Made by a program: the position numbers and the translations under genes. From Roseiflexus sp. (lineage in GTDB: Bacteria; Chloroflexota; Chloroflexia; Chloroflexales; Roseiflexaceae), in the NCBI GenBank assembly GCA_025062325.1, contig JANXAL010000003.1:1-51202 (forward strand): a stretch of DNA of 51,202 bases, given 5' to 3'. The notes under the pieces were generated by a model. The model saw nothing but the letters and a program-made list of their open reading frames with translations. It did no database searches and was not told the DNA's origin. Below, piece by piece: positions 9,122 through 17,755 of the stretch (position 1 is its first letter; each line of letters opens with the position of its first letter).

Positions 9122-10483
9122 ATGGACGAAACACGCGCTATTCGTCTGTCGCCGCCGGTCGGTCGAGCATTGCTCACATGGAACGGAAAACAACCACCGC
9201 CGCCGCTCGCCGTGCCTCCTGCGATTGAGGTCGAACGGTGCGGCAGCGGCGATCAGCTTCTGCTTCACGGCGAGAACCTTGCTGCGCTCGCCTGGCTGCT
9301 CGCCAACGGCTACCGGCAGCGGATCAATCTGATCTACATTGATCCGCCATTTGGCTCAGGCATTGATCGCGTGCGGCGCGTTCGCTTGCGTGGTTCCGGT
9401 CCGGCGCGTCTCGTCCCGGTCGCCGAGGTCGAATACTGTGATACCTGGAATGCCGATGCCTATCTCCAGTTCATGTACGAGCGGTTGATAGCGCTGCGCG
9501 ACCTGCTCGCCGATGACGGGTGCATCTACCTGCACTGCGATTTTCGCAAGGCGCACCACCTCCGCTGTCTGATGGACGAAGTCTTTGGCGCAGAACGGAT
9601 GCTCAATGAGATCATCTGGTTCTACCCGCGCGGCGGCGATGGCGAACGCCAGTTCAACCGCAAACACGACACTATCCTGCTCTATGCACGAGGCGACCGC
9701 TGGACATTCAACTACAACGAGGTGCTCATCCCTTACACTCGTCGCCAGCTTGCCCGCTTCCGCCAGGAAGATGAGCGCGGACGCTACTACTGGAACGTCA
9801 ACCCGCGCGGTGAGCGCGTCAAGACGTATCTGCGCAAACCGGGCATCGGCGCCTACGATGTCTGGACGATCCCGATCGAGGCTGCGCTAGTGCGCGACCT
9901 CGGCTACCCGACTGCGAAACCGCTGGCGTTGCTTGATCGTATCATCCGCGCCTCGTCCCGACCGGGCGACTTGGTGCTCGACTGCTTCGCTGGCTCAGGA
10001 ACGACAGCCGTAGCAGCGCAGAGCCTGGGACGGCGCTGGATTGCATGTGACGTAAACACGAGCGCCATCCAGATCGCATCCAGGAGACTCCGCCGCGCCA
10101 TCCTGGAATGCACATCGTCCTCCGCCGGGTTCTCGGTGTGGCGGATCGGAGATGCCGCGCCTGCACCGCGTGGCGACGCGCATGTTCGTGTGACGTATCA
10201 CAACGATCAGATTACAATTACTGTCGAGTCCTACACCAATCCTCTGCTGGCTGACGCCTCCCAAGCGCTTCCCGACTGGCGCTGTCTCGTCGATGAGATT
10301 GTCATCGATCCCCGATACGATGGCGCAATCTTTCGCCCTGCCATCATGGACGCGCCGCCTCGCCGCAGTACGCTGGTGCGCGGCGCATACACCCTTGCAC
10401 TGGCAGACGTCGGCCCATCTCTGGCGCTCAAAATCGTCGATGCTGCTGGCAGCGAAGCGTTCATCGTTGTGCCGATCCGATGA
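9122..10483 (+). CDS. Orphan DNA methyltransferase, amino-methyltransferase beta class
   Basis: Transfers a methyl group from S-adenosylmethionine to adenine N6 or cytosine N4 in DNA. In the 453-residue protein, catalytic motif IV is IYIDPPFGSG (DPPF at 74-77) and the SAM-binding motif is DLVLDCFAGSGTT (FAGSGTT 289-295), preceded by motif X KPLALLDRII. The order catalytic motif, recognition region, then SAM site defines the beta class, shared with type III Mod subunits. The last 120 residues form an extra C-terminal region of unknown role. No restriction endonuclease, Res subunit or specificity subunit is nearby, so it looks solitary. A GCTCCGC/GCGGAGC inverted repeat (9069-9075 and 9104-9110) sits just upstream and overlaps the likely ribosome binding site GCGGAG. 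Confidence 0.88.
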   Translation: MDETRAIRLSPPVGRALLTWNGKQPPPPLAVPPAIEVERCGSGDQLLLHGENLAALAWLLANGYRQRINLIYIDPPFGSGIDRVRRVRLRGSGPARLVPVAEVEYCDTWNADAYLQFMYERLIALRDLLADDGCIYLHCDFRKAHHLRCLMDEVFGAERMLNEIIWFYPRGGDGERQFNRKHDTILLYARGDRWTFNYNEVLIPYTRRQLARFRQEDERGRYYWNVNPRGERVKTYLRKPGIGAYDVWTIPIEAALVRDLGYPTAKPLALLDRIIRASSRPGDLVLDCFAGSGTTAVAAQSLGRRWIACDVNTSAIQIASRRLRRAILECTSSSAGFSVWRIGDAAPAPRGDAHVRVTYHNDQITITVESYTNPLLADASQALPDWRCLVDEIVIDPRYDGAIFRPAIMDAPPRRSTLVRGAYTLALADVGPSLALKIVDAAGSEAFIVVPIR

Positions 10484-10505
10484 AAATCTTTGTATGATCT
10501 GCTGC

Positions 10506-10534
10506 TTGACTTGCCCTGCGTGACAGTGTATACT
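10506..10534 (+). promoter_or_regulatory. Strong sigma-70 promoter inside a dyad
   Basis: TTGACT (10506-10511), an exact 17-base spacer and TATACT (10529-10534). The promoter is flanked by a perfect 7-base inverted repeat, GCTTGAC (10504-10510) and GTCAAGC (10537-10543), which could be an operator. It drives the structured leader that follows. Confidence 0.75.
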
Positions 10535-10540
10535 TCGTCA

Positions 10541-10908
10541 AGCCGGTATGTCCGGTTGGTTGAGTGTGCTCTCTCGACGGAAAGAATGCCTGGGTTAAGT
10601 CATGTTGCTGCTTATCGTTCAGGTTCAAGAGTGCGGACGGAACTGCGGCAACAGGAGCGATGCGCCAATGAGGGGCGCAGGTGTACTGCCAAGAGAATGA
10701 TTGCTTCTCCAGGCTCATCCGGGAGAGTATTCTGAAACAGGGATATGGACGCAAACTCTGGTCATAGTCGTGCGCGGCGGCACCACGACGACTGTGCGCC
10801 GATCACCTTTCATGCTGCGGGGAAGTGCAGCGCTGGCGGTCGCTTCTAGCGGCTTACGCTCTCCTATTGCTATGCGCCCCCGCAGCACAAGGCTGTGGGG
10901 GCTTTTTT
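10541..10908 (+). ncRNA. Candidate attenuator or riboswitch leader of the hydrolase-mgtE operon
   Basis: A roughly 365-nt transcript is predicted from the promoter at 10506-10534 to the intrinsic terminator at 10876-10908. It is rich in local stems: TGCGCC/GGCGCA (10661-10666, 10674-10679), GTCGTG/CACGAC (10767-10772, 10784-10789) and GCTGC/GCAGC (10814-10818, 10827-10831). The segment GCTGCGGGG (10814-10822) is perfectly complementary to CCCCGCAGC (10878-10886), the 5' arm of the terminator, so terminator and antiterminator are mutually exclusive. The GCTGC/GCAGC hairpin would sequester the antiterminator strand. This is the layout of a transcription-attenuating leader. The terminator is 128 bases before the hydrolase ATG, and mgtE follows, so Mg2+ is the obvious ligand guess. 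I cannot see the conserved M-box cores. Confidence 0.6.
10876..10908 (+). terminator. Intrinsic terminator in the mgtE leader
   Basis: GCCCCCGCAGC (10876-10886) pairs over 11 bp (one G-U) with GCTGTGGGGGC (10892-10902), with a 5-base loop and six T residues (10903-10908). Confidence 0.88.
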
Positions 10909-11035
10909 GAGCGCATCACCTCACGCTCCAGGTCCTCCTGACATCGGCGGCGTCTCGAGTGCATCAACGGCCTACCGTTGAACCCCGCGCGTCTGATTGA
11001 CAATCTGCCTGCAATTTTGTCAACGGAGGACTGCC
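10909..11035 (+). promoter_or_regulatory. Post-terminator leader with two hairpins before the hydrolase start
   Basis: CAACGG/CCGTTG (10965-10970, 10975-10980) is a tight stem with loop CCTA. TTGACAA/TTGTCAA (10997-11003, 11017-11023) ends one base before the GGAGGA ribosome binding site (11025-11030) and could affect access to it. Confidence 0.45.
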
Positions 11036-11767
11036 ATGACAGCGCTTACTCTGCGCGCCATTCCTGCAGCCCGGCGCGCATCTGCGCTCTACTGCGCAAC
11101 TGGTGGCAGCGGATTCCCGCTATTGTTCATTCACGGCTTCGGCGCCAGCGGTGATGTATTTCAGCCGCTTGTCAGCAAACTCGCCGGTCGGTATCAGACC
11201 ATTGTGCCGGACTTGCGCGGGCATGGTCGGAGCCGTCGGTTGCCACTTGCCGATAGTATCGAACGGATGGCGGCTGATGTGGGTGATCTGCTCGATCTGC
11301 TCAGAATTGGTCGCACCTTCGTAATCGGTCACGCGGGCGGATCGGCGATTGCCGCGCACGTGGCGGCTAAGCAGCCAGGCCGGGTGTGCGGACTTGTGCT
11401 AATTTCGCCGCCTGAGATTCAATCGCCAGGACGTCGATCGCTCGGTGCACGTCTGCGCGATGGCTTGAGCGCTGCATTCAGTCACAACGCCAACGCTGGC
11501 GACCACGACGTTCAGGCATGCCAGCGCCTGCTCCAGAAGAGCGATTATCGCTTGCAACTGCGCTCGATTACAGCGCCCACGCTGGTGGTTGCCGGGGATC
11601 ACGAACCGGCGCCGATCGTGCGTCAGGCGCGCGAGATTGCGCAGATCGTCAGCAACAGTACGCCAGCAATCATACGGGGAGGCGGCGCCAGTCTGCTGCC
11701 CAACCACGCCGACGCAGTGATTAAGGTGCTGGCGCCCTGGCTTGAGCAGCAGGAGCGCGCCGCATGA
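11036..11767 (+). CDS. Alpha/beta-hydrolase fold protein lacking the nucleophile
   Basis: A 243-residue alpha/beta-hydrolase fold protein with the oxyanion strand LLFIHGFGASGD (29-40), VPDLRGHGRS (57-66) and the nucleophile elbow VIGHAGGSA (96-104). The position normally held by the catalytic Ser of GHSxGG is Ala100, so the classical triad is broken. The acid site (VVAGDHE) and a late His (LLPNHAD) remain. GGAGGA five bases before the ATG at 11036 fixes the start; the open frame upstream begins inside the leader hairpin. Its stop overlaps the mgtE start (ATGA, 11764-11767), implying coupled translation. It may be a pseudoenzyme serving a binding or regulatory role with the transporter, or it may use Ser103; both are inference. 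Confidence 0.85.
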   Translation: MTALTLRAIPAARRASALYCATGGSGFPLLFIHGFGASGDVFQPLVSKLAGRYQTIVPDLRGHGRSRRLPLADSIERMAADVGDLLDLLRIGRTFVIGHAGGSAIAAHVAAKQPGRVCGLVLISPPEIQSPGRRSLGARLRDGLSAAFSHNANAGDHDVQACQRLLQKSDYRLQLRSITAPTLVVAGDHEPAPIVRQAREIAQIVSNSTPAIIRGGGASLLPNHADAVIKVLAPWLEQQERAA

Positions 11768-13128
11768 CCGCACCGCTTGACCTGGACCTGCTTGAACAGC
11801 AGGTGCGCGCCGCCCTCGAAAGCGATGACCTCGCAACGCTCCGCGATCTGGTGGCGCGCATCTACCCTCCCGATCTGGCGGATATTATCGAACGCCTCGA
11901 TGACGAGGATCAACAGCGCGTCTTCAGTCTGCTCGAACCTCCGCAGGCCGCCGATGTGCTCGATGAAGCCAGCGTCGATACAGCGCGCGACCTTATCAGT
12001 CAGTTGCCTGTCGAACAGGCGGCCGACATTCTCGAAGAGCTCGATAGCGACGATGCGGCCGCCATTCTCACTGAAGATGTGCCTGAACGACAGCACGAAC
12101 TGCTGGCGGCAATGGCGCCGGAGGAAGCCGCCGACGTTCGTGAATTATTGCGCTACCCGCCTCAGAGCGCTGGTCGCCTGCTGAACGATCAGTTCGTCGC
12201 GCTGCGCGAAAGTGACACGGTCGCCGATGCGATGGAGCGCCTGCGCAGCATCATCCACGATGCCGCTGTCATTGTGTATCTCTACGTGCTGGACAGGTAC
12301 GATCGACTCATTGGCACGGTCAGCTTGCGCCGATTGCTGGTCGAGTCGCCCTATCGACCGATCATCGAATTGATGCGCCCCTCCCCGATCGCCGTCCGAC
12401 CCGACACCGACCAGGAAGAAGTCGCACGCCTGGCGGCGCGCTACGACCTCGCGGCGCTGCCTGTCGTCGATGAAGAAGGACGGATGCTCGGCGTCGTCAC
12501 GGTCGATGATGTCATGGACGTGCTGGTGGAAGAAGGCGCGGAAGACGTGCTGAAGTTCGGCGCCGTGGCGCAGGGTCAGGCAGACGAAACGTACTTTACG
12601 ACGCCGATTATGGCGTCGGTGCGTCGGCGCATTGTCTGGCTGCTGTTCCTCTTCGTCGCTGGATCGATCACCGCTAATGTTCTGCGCCTGTTTGAAGCGG
12701 AACTGGAGCGAGTTGTGGCGCTCTCGTTCTTTATCCCCCTGCTGATTGGCACCGGCGGCAATACGGGCGCCCAGACCGTCTCAACGCTCATTCGCGCCAT
12801 GGCGCTTAATGAAGTTCGTCTGCGCGATGTGTGGCGCGTGCTGGCGCGTGAGCTGCTGGTGGGCATCATTCTCGGCTGCCTGCTGGCAATTATCGCATTT
12901 GGACGCGCATTTCTTGAAGTGCCCATGGCTTCGCTGGCAATCACGGTCGCCCTCTCTGTGATGGCAATCTGCATCTGGGCGAATATTATTGGCGCAATGG
13001 TGCCAATGGCAGCCCGCCGGTTTGGCATCGATCCCGCCCTCATTTCAGCGCCGCTGATCACAACGCTGGTCGACGCCAGTGGGCTGGCGATTTACCTCCT
13101 CATTGCCAAACTGCTGCTGGGATTGTGA
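11764..13128 (+). CDS. mgtE: Magnesium transporter MgtE
   Basis: A dimeric Mg2+ channel of the inner membrane. The 454-residue protein has the standard layout. An acidic helical N domain (about 1-130, repeated EEAADI and DVLDEASVD phrases) is followed by a tandem CBS pair (about 135-265, with VVDEEGRMLGVVTVDDVMDVL). Five C-terminal transmembrane helices start near 290 and include the ion-path signature LLIGTGGNTGAQ. In characterised MgtE proteins, Mg2+ bound between the N and CBS domains closes the pore. Length and domain order match the family, and no key segment is missing. It is translationally coupled to the hydrolase-like gene and both sit behind the attenuator-like leader, so expression may be controlled at RNA level in addition to channel gating. 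Confidence 0.96.
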   Translation: MTAPLDLDLLEQQVRAALESDDLATLRDLVARIYPPDLADIIERLDDEDQQRVFSLLEPPQAADVLDEASVDTARDLISQLPVEQAADILEELDSDDAAAILTEDVPERQHELLAAMAPEEAADVRELLRYPPQSAGRLLNDQFVALRESDTVADAMERLRSIIHDAAVIVYLYVLDRYDRLIGTVSLRRLLVESPYRPIIELMRPSPIAVRPDTDQEEVARLAARYDLAALPVVDEEGRMLGVVTVDDVMDVLVEEGAEDVLKFGAVAQGQADETYFTTPIMASVRRRIVWLLFLFVAGSITANVLRLFEAELERVVALSFFIPLLIGTGGNTGAQTVSTLIRAMALNEVRLRDVWRVLARELLVGIILGCLLAIIAFGRAFLEVPMASLAITVALSVMAICIWANIIGAMVPMAARRFGIDPALISAPLITTLVDASGLAIYLLIAKLLLGL

Positions 13129-14510: not shown

Positions 14511-15640
14511 ACGACAGGTTGATTGGCATTCTGGGCGGGGGACAACTGGGTCGGATGCTGGCGCTTGCCGGTTATCCGCTCGGTCTGCGCTTCCGCTTCC
14601 TTGATCCTGCCAGTGACGCGCCGGTGCGCTACCTGGCAGAGCATATCGTCGCCCCCTACGAGGACCATTTAGCCGTGGCGCAGTTTGGCGCCGGGCTCAC
14701 GGTTGCCACCTATGAGTTTGAGAACGTACCGGTCGCAACGGCGCGCGCTCTCGAGCAGCGCGTACCAGTATTTCCGCCGCCGCAGGCGCTTGAGGTTGCC
14801 CAGGATCGGCTTGCAGAAAAGCGCTTCTTTACCCAGTTGCATATTCCAACCGCCCCGTTCGAGCCGGTGGATGATCGCACGTCGCTTGATACAGCCATTG
14901 CCCGGATTGGGCTGCCTGCCGTCCTGAAGACGCGACGCCTTGGCTACGACGGCAAAGGACAGGCGCTCATTAGACAACACACCGACATCGATGACGCATG
15001 GCGCGCGCTTGGGGGGCAACCGCTCATTCTCGAAGGGTTCGTCTCCTTTGTGCGTGAACTCTCGATCCTGGCAGTGCGCGGGCGGGACGGCGCTATTGCG
15101 TACTATCCGCTGGTCGAGAATCTGCATCGTAATGGCATTCTCTATCGCTCAATTGCGCCAGCGCCTAGTCTAACCACCGATGTGCAGATGCTGGCAGAGA
15201 CCTATGCGCGCCGGGTGCTTGAAGCGCTTGATTACGTCGGCGTTCTCGCGATCGAGATGTTTGAAGTGGATGCTTCCTCCGTAGGCGCTACTGGCGTTCG
15301 TCTGCTAGCAAACGAAATGGCGCCGCGCGTCCACAATTCTGGTCACTGGACTATCGAGGGGGCAGTGACGAGCCAGTTCGAGAACCATCTGCGTGCCATC
15401 ACCGGTTTGCCGCTCGGTGACACCTCAGCGCGTGGTTGCGCTGCGATGGTCAACCTTATCGGCAGCCTGCCCGATGCGGAGATGCTGCTGGCGTTGCCCG
15501 ACACCCATCTGCATCTCTACGACAAAGCGCCACGGCCAGGGCGAAAACTGGGGCACGTGACCGTCTGCGCCGGTGACGCAACGCGCCTGGCGGAGCGTCT
15601 AGCGCTCGTTGAGCGGTATGTCCCGGCGAGGACGCAGTGA
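14507..15640 (+). CDS. purK: N5-carboxyaminoimidazole ribonucleotide synthase PurK
   Basis: An ATP-grasp enzyme that carboxylates aminoimidazole ribonucleotide with bicarbonate to make N5-CAIR for PurE. The 377-residue protein starts with the nucleotide-binding [16 protein letters not shown], has the ATP-grasp segment [13 protein letters not shown], the [13 protein letters not shown] strand, and the metal/ATP site [20 protein letters not shown]. The C-terminal phrase [16 protein letters not shown] is canonical. The last codons lie in the first copy of a 51-bp tandem duplication (15613-15714), whose second copy is noncoding, so the C terminus may have been reshaped by that event. Confidence 0.97.
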
Positions 15641-15714
15641 CTACCACCGACGGGGGGCAGAAAGCGGTATGTCCCGGCGAGGACGCGGTGATCACCACCG
15701 ACGGGGGGCAGAAA
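15613..15714. repeat. 51-bp tandem duplication at the purK 3' end
   Basis: Two 51-base units, 15613-15663 and 15664-15714, begin GCGGTATGTCCCGGCGAGGA and end in CGGGGGGCAGAAA. They differ at only a few positions (CAGTGACTACC versus CGGTGATCACC). Unit 1 contains the purK stop codon; unit 2 lies in the intergenic spacer. Confidence 0.93.
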
Positions 15715-15828
15715 GCTGCGGATGATGAAGCGGAGGGTGCGCCCATAGCGGATGGCGTCAGTAGCGGCTCCCATCAAGCAGAGACGCAGGTAACGGTTAC
15801 CGAAAGGGCGCTGGCCGCTCACCAACGT

Positions 15829-16046
15829 CACTCGTCACTTGGCACTCGTCACTCGTCACTTGGCACTCGTCACTCGCCACTTGGCACCCGTCACTCGTCA
15901 CTTGGCACTCGTCACTCGTCACTTGGCACTTGTCACTCGTCACTTGGCACTCGTCACTCGCCACTTGGCACCCGTCACTCGTCACTTGGCACTCGTCACT
16001 CGTCACTTGGCACTTGTCGCTCAGCCCTCATCACTCGTCACGGTTA
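15829..16046. repeat. Nested 7/21/84-bp tandem repeat
   Basis: Eight complete 21-bp units (15843-16010) plus partial units. Each is three heptamers: CACTCGT, CACTCGT, CACTTGG. Variants B (second heptamer ends CGC), C (first heptamer CACCCGT) and D (first heptamer CACTTGT) occur in the order A B C A D B C A D', giving an 84-bp higher-order period. As 21 is divisible by three, several frames stay open through it. It has no unique spacers and is not a CRISPR array. It fills the gap between purK and sppA. Confidence 0.95.
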
Positions 16047-16066
16047 CACGTTGAGGTCTCGAACAT

Positions 16067-17755
16067 ATGTTAACCGCCCTCTTTATCTGGCTGATCAACC
16101 TGACACGGCATAGTCGCAACCTATGGCGGCGATTGCTGCGACGGCGCGTTGCGTATGTTCGCATTCCAATCAGCGGGGCGCTGCCGGAGTTCGCACCAGC
16201 GCCGCCGTGGTGGGCGCAGCGCTTCTTTGGCGCACAGGCGCCGCTGAGCCTAAGCGAGTTGCGCCGTCGCTTCGAATGGCTGGCGTCTGACCCACAGGTG
16301 CGCGGTGTAGTGCTCGATATCGGCGCCCTGACATGCGGATGGGCGACGATCCAGAGTATCGATCAGGAAGTCCGCCAACTCCGCGAGCGCAGCAAACTGG
16401 TCGTCGCCCAGGTTGCGAACCCCGACACGAAAAGTTATGTTGCCGCGTGCGCCGCCGACCTGATCGTGGCGCCGCCTGCCGGATTGCTAACGGTCACCGG
16501 CCTGTACACCGAAGTGCGTTTCCTCAAAGATGCGCTAGCAAAAGCGGACGTGAGGGTGGAAGTCACTGCAGTGTCACCGTACAAGGCTGCGGGCGAGCCG
16601 CTGGCACGCTCAGACATGTCACCGGAAAACCGTGAGCAGCTTGAGCGGTTGATTGACCAGCGCTACGCCATGATTATCGAGACCATTGCCAGGGCGCGTC
16701 GCAAGACGGCTGACGAGGTGCGTTCCCTCATCGATGGAGCGCCATGGAGCGCCCGACGCGCGCGGGAAGCCGGACTGATCGATGCTGTACTGTACGAAGA
16801 CGAACTGCCCGCCTTTCTAGCATCGCATACCGGCGCGTCTTCGACAAAGCTGCCAGCGATTGCCGAGTGGGACGAAGCTCGCCGCACTCTGCGCCTGCCG
16901 ATGCTGCGCCGCTATCGCCGTCTGGTCGGCGTCGTCGCAGTGGATGGAACGATTGCCCCTGGACGCAGCCGCCGGATTCCGCTGCCAATCCCACTGATCG
17001 GCAGTGAGATTGCCGGGAGCGAGAGCATCGTGCAGGCGCTGCGTCAGGCAGAGCGCAATCCGCGGATTGCCGCCGTCATCCTGTATGTCAATTCACCCGG
17101 CGGCAGCGCCTTCGACTCTGACCTGATCTGGCGTGAGGTGCGGCGACTCGACCGGCGCAAACCAGTGGTGGCTGTGATGGGAGATGTCGCCGCTTCGGGC
17201 GGGTACTATGTTGCGTCCGGCGCACGCGCCATTCTTGCACAACCCGGAACTATCACCGGCAGCATTGGCGTCCTGATCATCCGCCCAGTCTTCGACGGCC
17301 TTGTCAGGCGCGCTGGCGTGAACACCGTCGCCATCGGGCGCGGCGCGAATAGCGGATTCTTTACCAGTGATGCGCCAACGGAACAGGAACGTCGGGCGAC
17401 GCGCACCCTGCTGGACGAAAGTTACGCCATCTTTAAGCAGCGCGTTGGTGAAGGGCGATCATTGACCGAGGATGCGCTCGAACCGCTGGCAGGCGGGCGC
17501 GTCTGGACCGGAAGTGAGGCGCGTGAGCAACGGTTGATCGACGACATCGGCGGCATGCCAGAGGCGTTGCTGAAGGCGCAGGAATTCGCCAGACTGCCAC
17601 GCGATCGGACGGCGCCGCTGGTTCTGATCGGCGGCGAACGCGGGCGCCTGATGCCGCAGCCGTTCCCCAACGAACCGCTAAAGGCGCTGATGGAGGCGCT
17701 GGATCTCTTGCATCAACCGCGGGTGTGGGCTCTTCTGCCGTTTAGTGACGAGTGA
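16067..17755 (+). CDS. sppA: Signal peptide peptidase SppA, long form
   Basis: A membrane-associated Ser/Lys protease that degrades released signal peptides. The 562-residue protein is the long, tandem-domain (67K) form. A hydrophobic N-terminal anchor (MLTALFIWLINL) precedes two ClpP-like domains. The N-terminal domain supplies the general-base Lys173 in SPYKAAGEPLARSDMS. The C-terminal domain supplies the nucleophile Ser377 in GDVAASGGYYVASGA, with the YVNSPGGS oxyanion strand upstream (340-347). Both catalytic residues of the family are present. The start ATG lies 20 bases after the heptamer repeat, with no strong ribosome binding site. After the stop, AGTGACG-AGTGATG heptamers reappear (17745-17760). 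Confidence 0.94.
   Translation: MLTALFIWLINLTRHSRNLWRRLLRRRVAYVRIPISGALPEFAPAPPWWAQRFFGAQAPLSLSELRRRFEWLASDPQVRGVVLDIGALTCGWATIQSIDQEVRQLRERSKLVVAQVANPDTKSYVAACAADLIVAPPAGLLTVTGLYTEVRFLKDALAKADVRVEVTAVSPYKAAGEPLARSDMSPENREQLERLIDQRYAMIIETIARARRKTADEVRSLIDGAPWSARRAREAGLIDAVLYEDELPAFLASHTGASSTKLPAIAEWDEARRTLRLPMLRRYRRLVGVVAVDGTIAPGRSRRIPLPIPLIGSEIAGSESIVQALRQAERNPRIAAVILYVNSPGGSAFDSDLIWREVRRLDRRKPVVAVMGDVAASGGYYVASGARAILAQPGTITGSIGVLIIRPVFDGLVRRAGVNTVAIGRGANSGFFTSDAPTEQERRATRTLLDESYAIFKQRVGEGRSLTEDALEPLAGGRVWTGSEAREQRLIDDIGGMPEALLKAQEFARLPRDRTAPLVLIGGERGRLMPQPFPNEPLKALMEALDLLHQPRVWALLPFSDE

Follow-up and report, generated by a model that had tools for sequence, protein, structure and literature searches.

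Gene organization of the mgtE locus

The window, i.e., the whole 51,202-nt stretch of Roseiflexus sp. DNA that was analyzed (contig JANXAL010000003.1), carries an operon in which a gene for an alpha/beta hydrolase is followed by mgtE, with a 4-nt overlap between mgtE and the hydrolase stop codon. That the downstream operon encodes MgtE had been proposed in a previous sequence-only reading of this DNA, and was confirmed by Pfam. The hydrolase gene stays beside mgtE in several Roseiflexaceae genera. The features of the operon and of its leader are as follows.

10504-10543, + strand: sigma70-type promoter, TTGACT (10506-10511), 17-nt spacer, TATACT (10529-10534); read from the sequence
10568-10576, + strand: GCTCTCTCG, 5′ strand of a P1-like long-range stem (alignment)
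10577-10719, + strand: probable former aptamer slot, structured, fast-evolving, with no M-box match (model searches)
10720-10728, + strand: CGGGAGAGT (CGAGAGAGC/T in relatives), 3′ strand of the P1-like stem (alignment)
10745-10849, + strand: upstream ORF (uORF) for the putative leader peptide MDANSGHSRARRHHDDCAPITFHAAGKCSAGGRF, 34 codons, stop TAG (conservation, coding signature)
10814-10822, + strand: predicted antiterminator GCTGCGGGG, codons 24-26 of the uORF (complementarity, folding)
10814-10831, + strand: small hairpin overlapping the antiterminator (-8.1 kcal/mol)
10876-10908, + strand: intrinsic terminator, GCCCCCGCAGC-ACAAG-GCTGTGGGGGC followed by TTTTTT (-23.8 kcal/mol; conserved in seven genomes)
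11036-11767, + strand: alpha/beta hydrolase, first gene of the operon (Pfam Abhydrolase_1, 1.6e-25)
11764-13128, + strand: mgtE (Pfam MgtE, MgtE_N and CBS)

The promoter is enclosed by a 7-bp dyad, GCTTGAC (10504-10510)/GTCAAGC (10537-10543), as had been noticed before, and transcription is expected to start at ~10541. Alignment revealed that the -35/-10 pair is kept in six of six same-genus genomes and in a genome of another genus (G015).

A short upstream ORF forms the conserved core of the leader

The leader occurs in each of the six same-genus genomes, and its key blocks recur in G015. In the alignment of these genomes, conservation peaks from GGGATATGGACGC to near the terminator, and the preceding 130-150 nt are variable. 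The conserved core is formed by the uORF at 10745-10849, which starts with MDANSGHSRARR; the sequence-only reading had overlooked this 34-codon ORF, which holds the antiterminator. The ATG frame is open in every aligned genome, its product beginning MDANSGHS[RC]AR in the genus and MDAKPGHSCARHRSDP in G015. In the six same-genus genomes the frame is free of indels, and the stop codon alternates between TAG and TAA. The dN/dS of the frame was 0.28, versus 1.0 and 2.4 in the other two frames, these values being pairwise sums over six related genomes and hence indicative figures. The serine that follows the histidine is encoded by AGT in some lineages and by TCA, TCG or TCT in others, and such an exchange between AGY and UCN codons suggests that selection acts on the amino acid. 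Based on frame conservation, the dN/dS value, the TAG/TAA exchange and the serine codon swaps, the uORF was judged likely to be coding, and the leader ORF looks translated.

We also considered that the block from GGGATATGGACGC to GGTCATAGT might be an RNA core that folds into an AUGgAC/GUCAU hairpin. This reading was rejected, because the serine codon swaps between AGT and TCN, some leaders encode the histidine by CAC, and others lack the pairing. When four uORF peptides were compared with the NCBIfam leader-peptide families, no match was obtained at E values up to 10.

The terminator and the antiterminator are predicted to be mutually exclusive

The terminator is located between the leader ORF and the hydrolase-mgtE genes, and begins 26 nt past the uORF stop. 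Its stem consists of 11 pairs, one of them G-U, and is followed by six T residues, in agreement with the 11-bp terminator that had been described. A perfect antiterminator had been claimed as well: GCTGCGGGG (10814-10822) is indeed exactly complementary over 9 nt to CCCCGCAGC (10878-10886) in the terminator 5′ arm, and among 500 dinucleotide-shuffled versions of the uORF only 5 paired equally well with this arm. The hairpin at 10814-10831, seen in the same reading, is also present. Its arms are invariant across relatives, so that covariation is uninformative, and it could mask the antiterminator if the uORF were untranslated. The leader had further been described as ~330 nt of stem-rich sequence, but its fold (10539-10870, 332 nt) was no better than that of shuffled sequences (z -0.83).

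When folding was modelled with a ribosome placed early on the uORF, the antiterminator formed with a probability of 0.99, and with the ribosome at the stop codon the terminator formed with a probability of 1.00. As computed from complementarity and folding, the two structures are mutually exclusive and the position of the ribosome sets the outcome. From these modelled outcomes, early arrest or drop-off would correspond to the ON state of the operon, and completed translation to the OFF state.

The M-box of related leaders is missing from the window locus

No Rfam family matched the window at the gathering thresholds (44 bits for the M-box, RF00380), and in the 10400-11200 interval, searched with E values up to 10, the best E value was 2.7; this agrees with the previous statement that no M-box, ydaO, yybP or cobalamin core motifs could be seen. 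An order-specific M-box model, used with filters off, found nothing in 10539-10745, and its positive control (L117) scored 150 bits. The core GTAGG.GCGG, CCGTCGAnAGACGCT and TAAGG, which is (nearly) invariant in 19 M-boxes of the order, is missing from the window slot. A degenerate M-box in this slot was considered and dropped, since the order-specific model gives no support for it.

In relatives the situation is different. M-boxes of 112-120 bits (Rfam) lie upstream of the uORF in G015, G051 and g21. Among 82 genomes of the order, 25 M-box sites were found in 23 genomes, and at 23 of the 25 a uORF of 15-60 codons that opens with ATG-GAN comes next at a constant spacing; shuffles predict 0.56 such cases, and shifted control windows gave 0-2. 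One further M-box uORF starts with TTG. Genes behind the M-box and the uORF include mgtE (in two architectures) and, in L120, an mgtC-like gene; small ORFs with an ABC-type permease-like ORF behind them also occur there, the mgtC-like and permease-like assignments being made by eye from the sequence. The L120 locus (G056:C120) carries an M-box, a uORF starting MDTIMAHADPDG, a terminator and the MgtC/SapB-like gene (by eye), and beyond it an MgtE_N-like ORF.

At loci of the hydrolase-mgtE type in G015, G051, G059 and, putatively, G440, the order of the leader is promoter, 37-41 nt, GTGCTCTCTCG (the 5′ strand of the M-box P1), aptamer, uORF and terminator; the hydrolase was seen at the locus in the first three. 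At the window locus, the letters of GCTCTCTCG are identical to the P1 5′ strand of these four genomes. The slot behind it retains a 9-bp closing stem and hairpins with a few compensatory changes (four genomes). It has no obvious sequence in common between the two subclades of the genus; the M-box core is gone and the flanks are the same as in the relatives. The genome of the window has a second locus (G000:C121:11710-11876; L101, L124), where an intact M-box of 120 bits is followed by the uORF MDEGGHRSQRRSAATAFPDALPLASVA and a terminator. Downstream there are two small ORFs, and relatives have an ABC-type permease-like ORF or mgtE at this place. The second-locus uORF has a dN/dS of 1.9, i.e., no purifying-selection signal overall, and only its N-terminus is conserved. 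Given the same flanks, the missing core, the M-box of the relatives, and the M-box with uORF elsewhere in the same genome, the window leader most likely derives from an ancestor with M-box, uORF and terminator, and has since lost the aptamer. We infer the direction, loss and not gain, from the distribution across relatives.

The slot could also be a new metal riboswitch, in which 10541-10745 would bind Mg2+ or another ion and set the choice between antiterminator and terminator, the ORF being incidental. Its location before mgtE, the retained closing stem and hairpins, and the aptamer that relatives carry in exactly that place are consistent with such a device. However, the two subclades share no obvious slot core and the uORF is strongly conserved, the leader folds no better than shuffles, and the same uORF type is found without any M-box in other lineages, so that we consider a new riboswitch quite unlikely. 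The part of the sequence-only reading that finds support is terminator/antiterminator attenuation of hydrolase-mgtE with Mg2+ as the natural signal; the undescribed riboswitch class does not, the conserved core being a translated-looking uORF and the only aptamer recognized at this locus in relatives the known M-box.

Similar uORFs precede mgtE across the Chloroflexota

When 84,980 species were scanned with an exact pattern, the start motif turned up in Roseiflexus, related Chloroflexota MAGs and Ktedonosporobacter rubrisoli and nowhere else; viral contigs gave no match. In K. rubrisoli, a member of a different class, the motif follows a strong Shine-Dalgarno sequence and is located ~400 nt upstream of mgtE. 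With a degenerate pattern, 15 matches were obtained in 400 Chloroflexota genomes, 14 of them upstream of mgtE. L098 (G179), which lies inside a long unrelated ORF, was discarded as a chance match to the motif. Besides the Ktedonobacteria, other genera and other families of the order thus have the motif before mgtE. The uORFs before other mgtE genes start with MDAIPGHS (G051, G049), MDDGHS (G045), MDVSSHS (g21), MNADGHSS or MSTDEHSS (f2), and MDAGPS[H/Y/S]SR or MDAGPSSSHS (Ktedonobacteria).

In the Ktedonobacteria (L054-L078), the uORF, preceded by a nearly invariant AAAGGAGGTGAGGGAC start, lies ~400-900 nt ahead of mgtE, and no clear ordinary intrinsic terminator was seen in these leaders. As judged by eye, CTCATCGAGTA in the uORF tail is able to pair with a downstream TACTCGATGAG, L068 shows a compensatory change in this pairing (CTTATCGAGTAA/TTACTCGATAAG), and the pairing segment is retained though the reading frame of the tail differs between species. 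In the f3 leaders (L030, L032, L034, L037) the uORF, MSTDGSTTEDD...AELPLIG, is apparently leaderless, with TATACT ~10 nt before the ATG. The terminator upstream of mgtE begins 2 nt after the uORF stop, so that the switching logic may be reversed there.

Asp or Glu is present at residues 2-4 in 28 of 29 uORFs, versus 7.2 expected, a count shaped in part by the search rule and too high, since an M[DE] start was the criterion for choosing the M-box uORFs. Asp2 is the sole acidic residue among the first ten of the window uORF, and the MDD, MDE and MEE uORFs have at least two. Histidine is found at residues 3-10 in 26 of 29 uORFs, versus 10.9 expected from within-peptide shuffling, again partly search-selected. 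This enrichment would fit a classic amino-acid attenuator that responds to the supply of charged tRNA (His, Ser, Arg or Cys), through which MgtE would follow the translation or ATP state and not Mg2+; the Salmonella mgtP/mgtM leaders, which sense proline and ATP, are a precedent (PMC3641672). However, one His per peptide is the rule, Tyr or Ser takes its place in L116, L068 and L071, no codon run is present, the targets are Mg2+ genes (mgtE; mgtC-like in L120), and an M-box lies upstream in 25 leaders. An amino-acid attenuator is thus an unlikely explanation.

The N-terminus is conserved across families, which raises the question of whether the uORF encodes a functional small protein, e.g., a regulator of MgtE, the terminator merely insulating the operon. 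A mycobacterial M-box uORF2 has a homologue outside the M-box context, with no known role (PMC12810186). Against a functional protein, different lineages have unrelated C-terminal parts, which are constrained instead by complementarity to the terminator, and the Ktedonobacterial pairing segment persists although its reading frame varies. We regard a small-protein function as very improbable.

The antiterminator often changes together with the terminator

The terminator starts 14-36 nt past the uORF stop in most leaders; in the uORF leaders L109, L118 and L019 the finder used detected none. The best partner of the terminator 5′ arm usually begins at uORF codons ~20-24. Next to the window pair, GCTGCGGGG/CCCCGCAGC, the antiterminator/terminator pairs are TCTCGCCAG/CTGGCGAGA (L101), GCTCGCC/GGCGAGC (L108), TTTCATCGG/CCGGTGAGG (L110, including G-U), AGTGTGGA/TCCACACT (L021) and the L119/L121 pair. 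Matched pairs beat shuffles in six distinct lineages (p 0.002-0.018), and Fisher's method applied to twelve lineages gave p ~8e-7 for the antiterminator match. In the G051, g21, G440 and f2 leaders the pairing was no better than in shuffles.

With the ribosome held at codon 9, the antiterminator formed before completion of the terminator with a probability of 0.63-1.00 in the twelve leaders that were modelled, and with the ribosome at the stop codon the terminator formed with a probability of 0.86-1.00. The folding direction predicted for the window was repeated in 11 other leaders. In L012, L015, L110 and L119 with an early ribosome, the completed terminator is far more stable at equilibrium, and hence the antiterminator would need to be kinetically trapped there.

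A ribosome-based model for the control of mgtE

We think it quite probable that the leader is a leader-peptide transcription attenuator of the hydrolase-mgtE operon, with low cytoplasmic Mg2+ as its most likely signal; the decision is most likely made by the ribosome that translates the uORF and not by a ligand-binding RNA. In this model, a ribosome would initiate on the 34-codon uORF at 10745. If unhindered it would reach the stop codon and cover or outrun codons 24-26, the terminator at 10876 would form, and mgtE would be off. Arrest or drop-off within about the first ten codons (the acidic MD, then GHS[R/C]) would free codons 24-26, which could then pair with the terminator 5′ arm and allow RNA polymerase to read through. 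The acidic early codons, together with the precedents of MgtL and mgtQ, lead us to propose that the ribosome itself senses low Mg2+, which would make a ribosome less stable while it translates the acidic N-terminus (intrinsic ribosome destabilization). In EttA targets and in MgtL, the destabilizing motif contains two early acidic residues, whereas the window uORF has one (Asp2). In MgtL, low Mg2+ leads to ribosome drop-off on EPDP and mgtA is turned on (PMC11282234), and Asp2 and Glu5 of mgtQ act likewise on mgtB (PMC8092293).

Like the window uORF, that of MgtL (E. coli/Salmonella mgtA) is short, has acidic codons near its start and lies ahead of a Mg2+ transporter gene, and drop-off at low Mg2+ lets transcription continue, as predicted here. 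Unlike MgtL, the window uORF belongs to another phylum, is unrelated in sequence and precedes mgtE; mgtA is controlled by Rho-dependent termination (PMC11282234), whereas the window has an intrinsic terminator and an antiterminator inside the uORF. In mgtM/mgtP (Salmonella mgtCBR; PMC3641672) and mgtQ (PMC8092293) uORF translation also picks between stem-loops before Mg2+ genes, and mgtQ likewise uses Asp2/Glu5. However, the signals of mgtM/mgtP are ATP and proline (PMC3641672), mgtQ acts on translation (PMC8092293), and none of the three has an M-box. The M-box (ykoK, RF00380) fills the homologous slot in G015, G051, G059 and G440 and is present at the second locus of the window's genome, but neither Rfam nor the order-specific model matches it at the window locus. 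The Mycobacterium tuberculosis pe20 M-box, with the uORF Rv1805A (RNA 2026, PMC12810186), also has a conserved short uORF before Mg2+-related genes, but is a translational platform with Rho-dependent termination for which no attenuator role was proposed, and the Rv1805A peptide is described as mycobacteria-specific, with a conserved Pro7 (PMC12810186). The Corynebacterium ilvB leader was first taken for a riboswitch candidate and proved to be a uORF attenuator with an antiterminator and an intrinsic terminator; in contrast to the window leader, it is expected to sense branched-chain amino acids via codon runs (PMC11109978). The window device appears analogous in principle to enterobacterial MgtL/MgtP/MgtQ, with no sequence family in common detected. 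In open-licence papers we found nothing on such a device in Chloroflexota, and it is absent from both Rfam and NCBIfam.

The chances seem to us about even that these leaders represent an undescribed, phylum-wide family of ribosome-based Mg2+ sensors, in which acidic leader peptides govern intrinsic termination ahead of Mg2+ genes, mgtE among them, and often follow an M-box that senses the same ion in series, the aptamer having been lost secondarily at the window locus. To our knowledge, ribosome-based Mg2+-sensing leader peptides are established only in Enterobacteria (E. coli or Salmonella). If the family is real, the MgtL principle would have been invented independently outside this group, and the existence of two unrelated families, one of them coupled in series to the M-box, would point to ribosome stability as a general gauge of Mg2+. 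Sensing by the ribosome would explain how the aptamer could be lost without loss of control. The natural variants (MDA, MDE, MEE and MSTD starts) offer material on which early residues confer Mg2+ sensitivity. A word of caution follows for other leaders: conserved "cores" may turn out to be uORFs.

Elsewhere in the window, the ORF at 15637-16113 consists largely of a short tandem repeat (~15850-16080) of SLGTRHS units, and is probably not a real protein.
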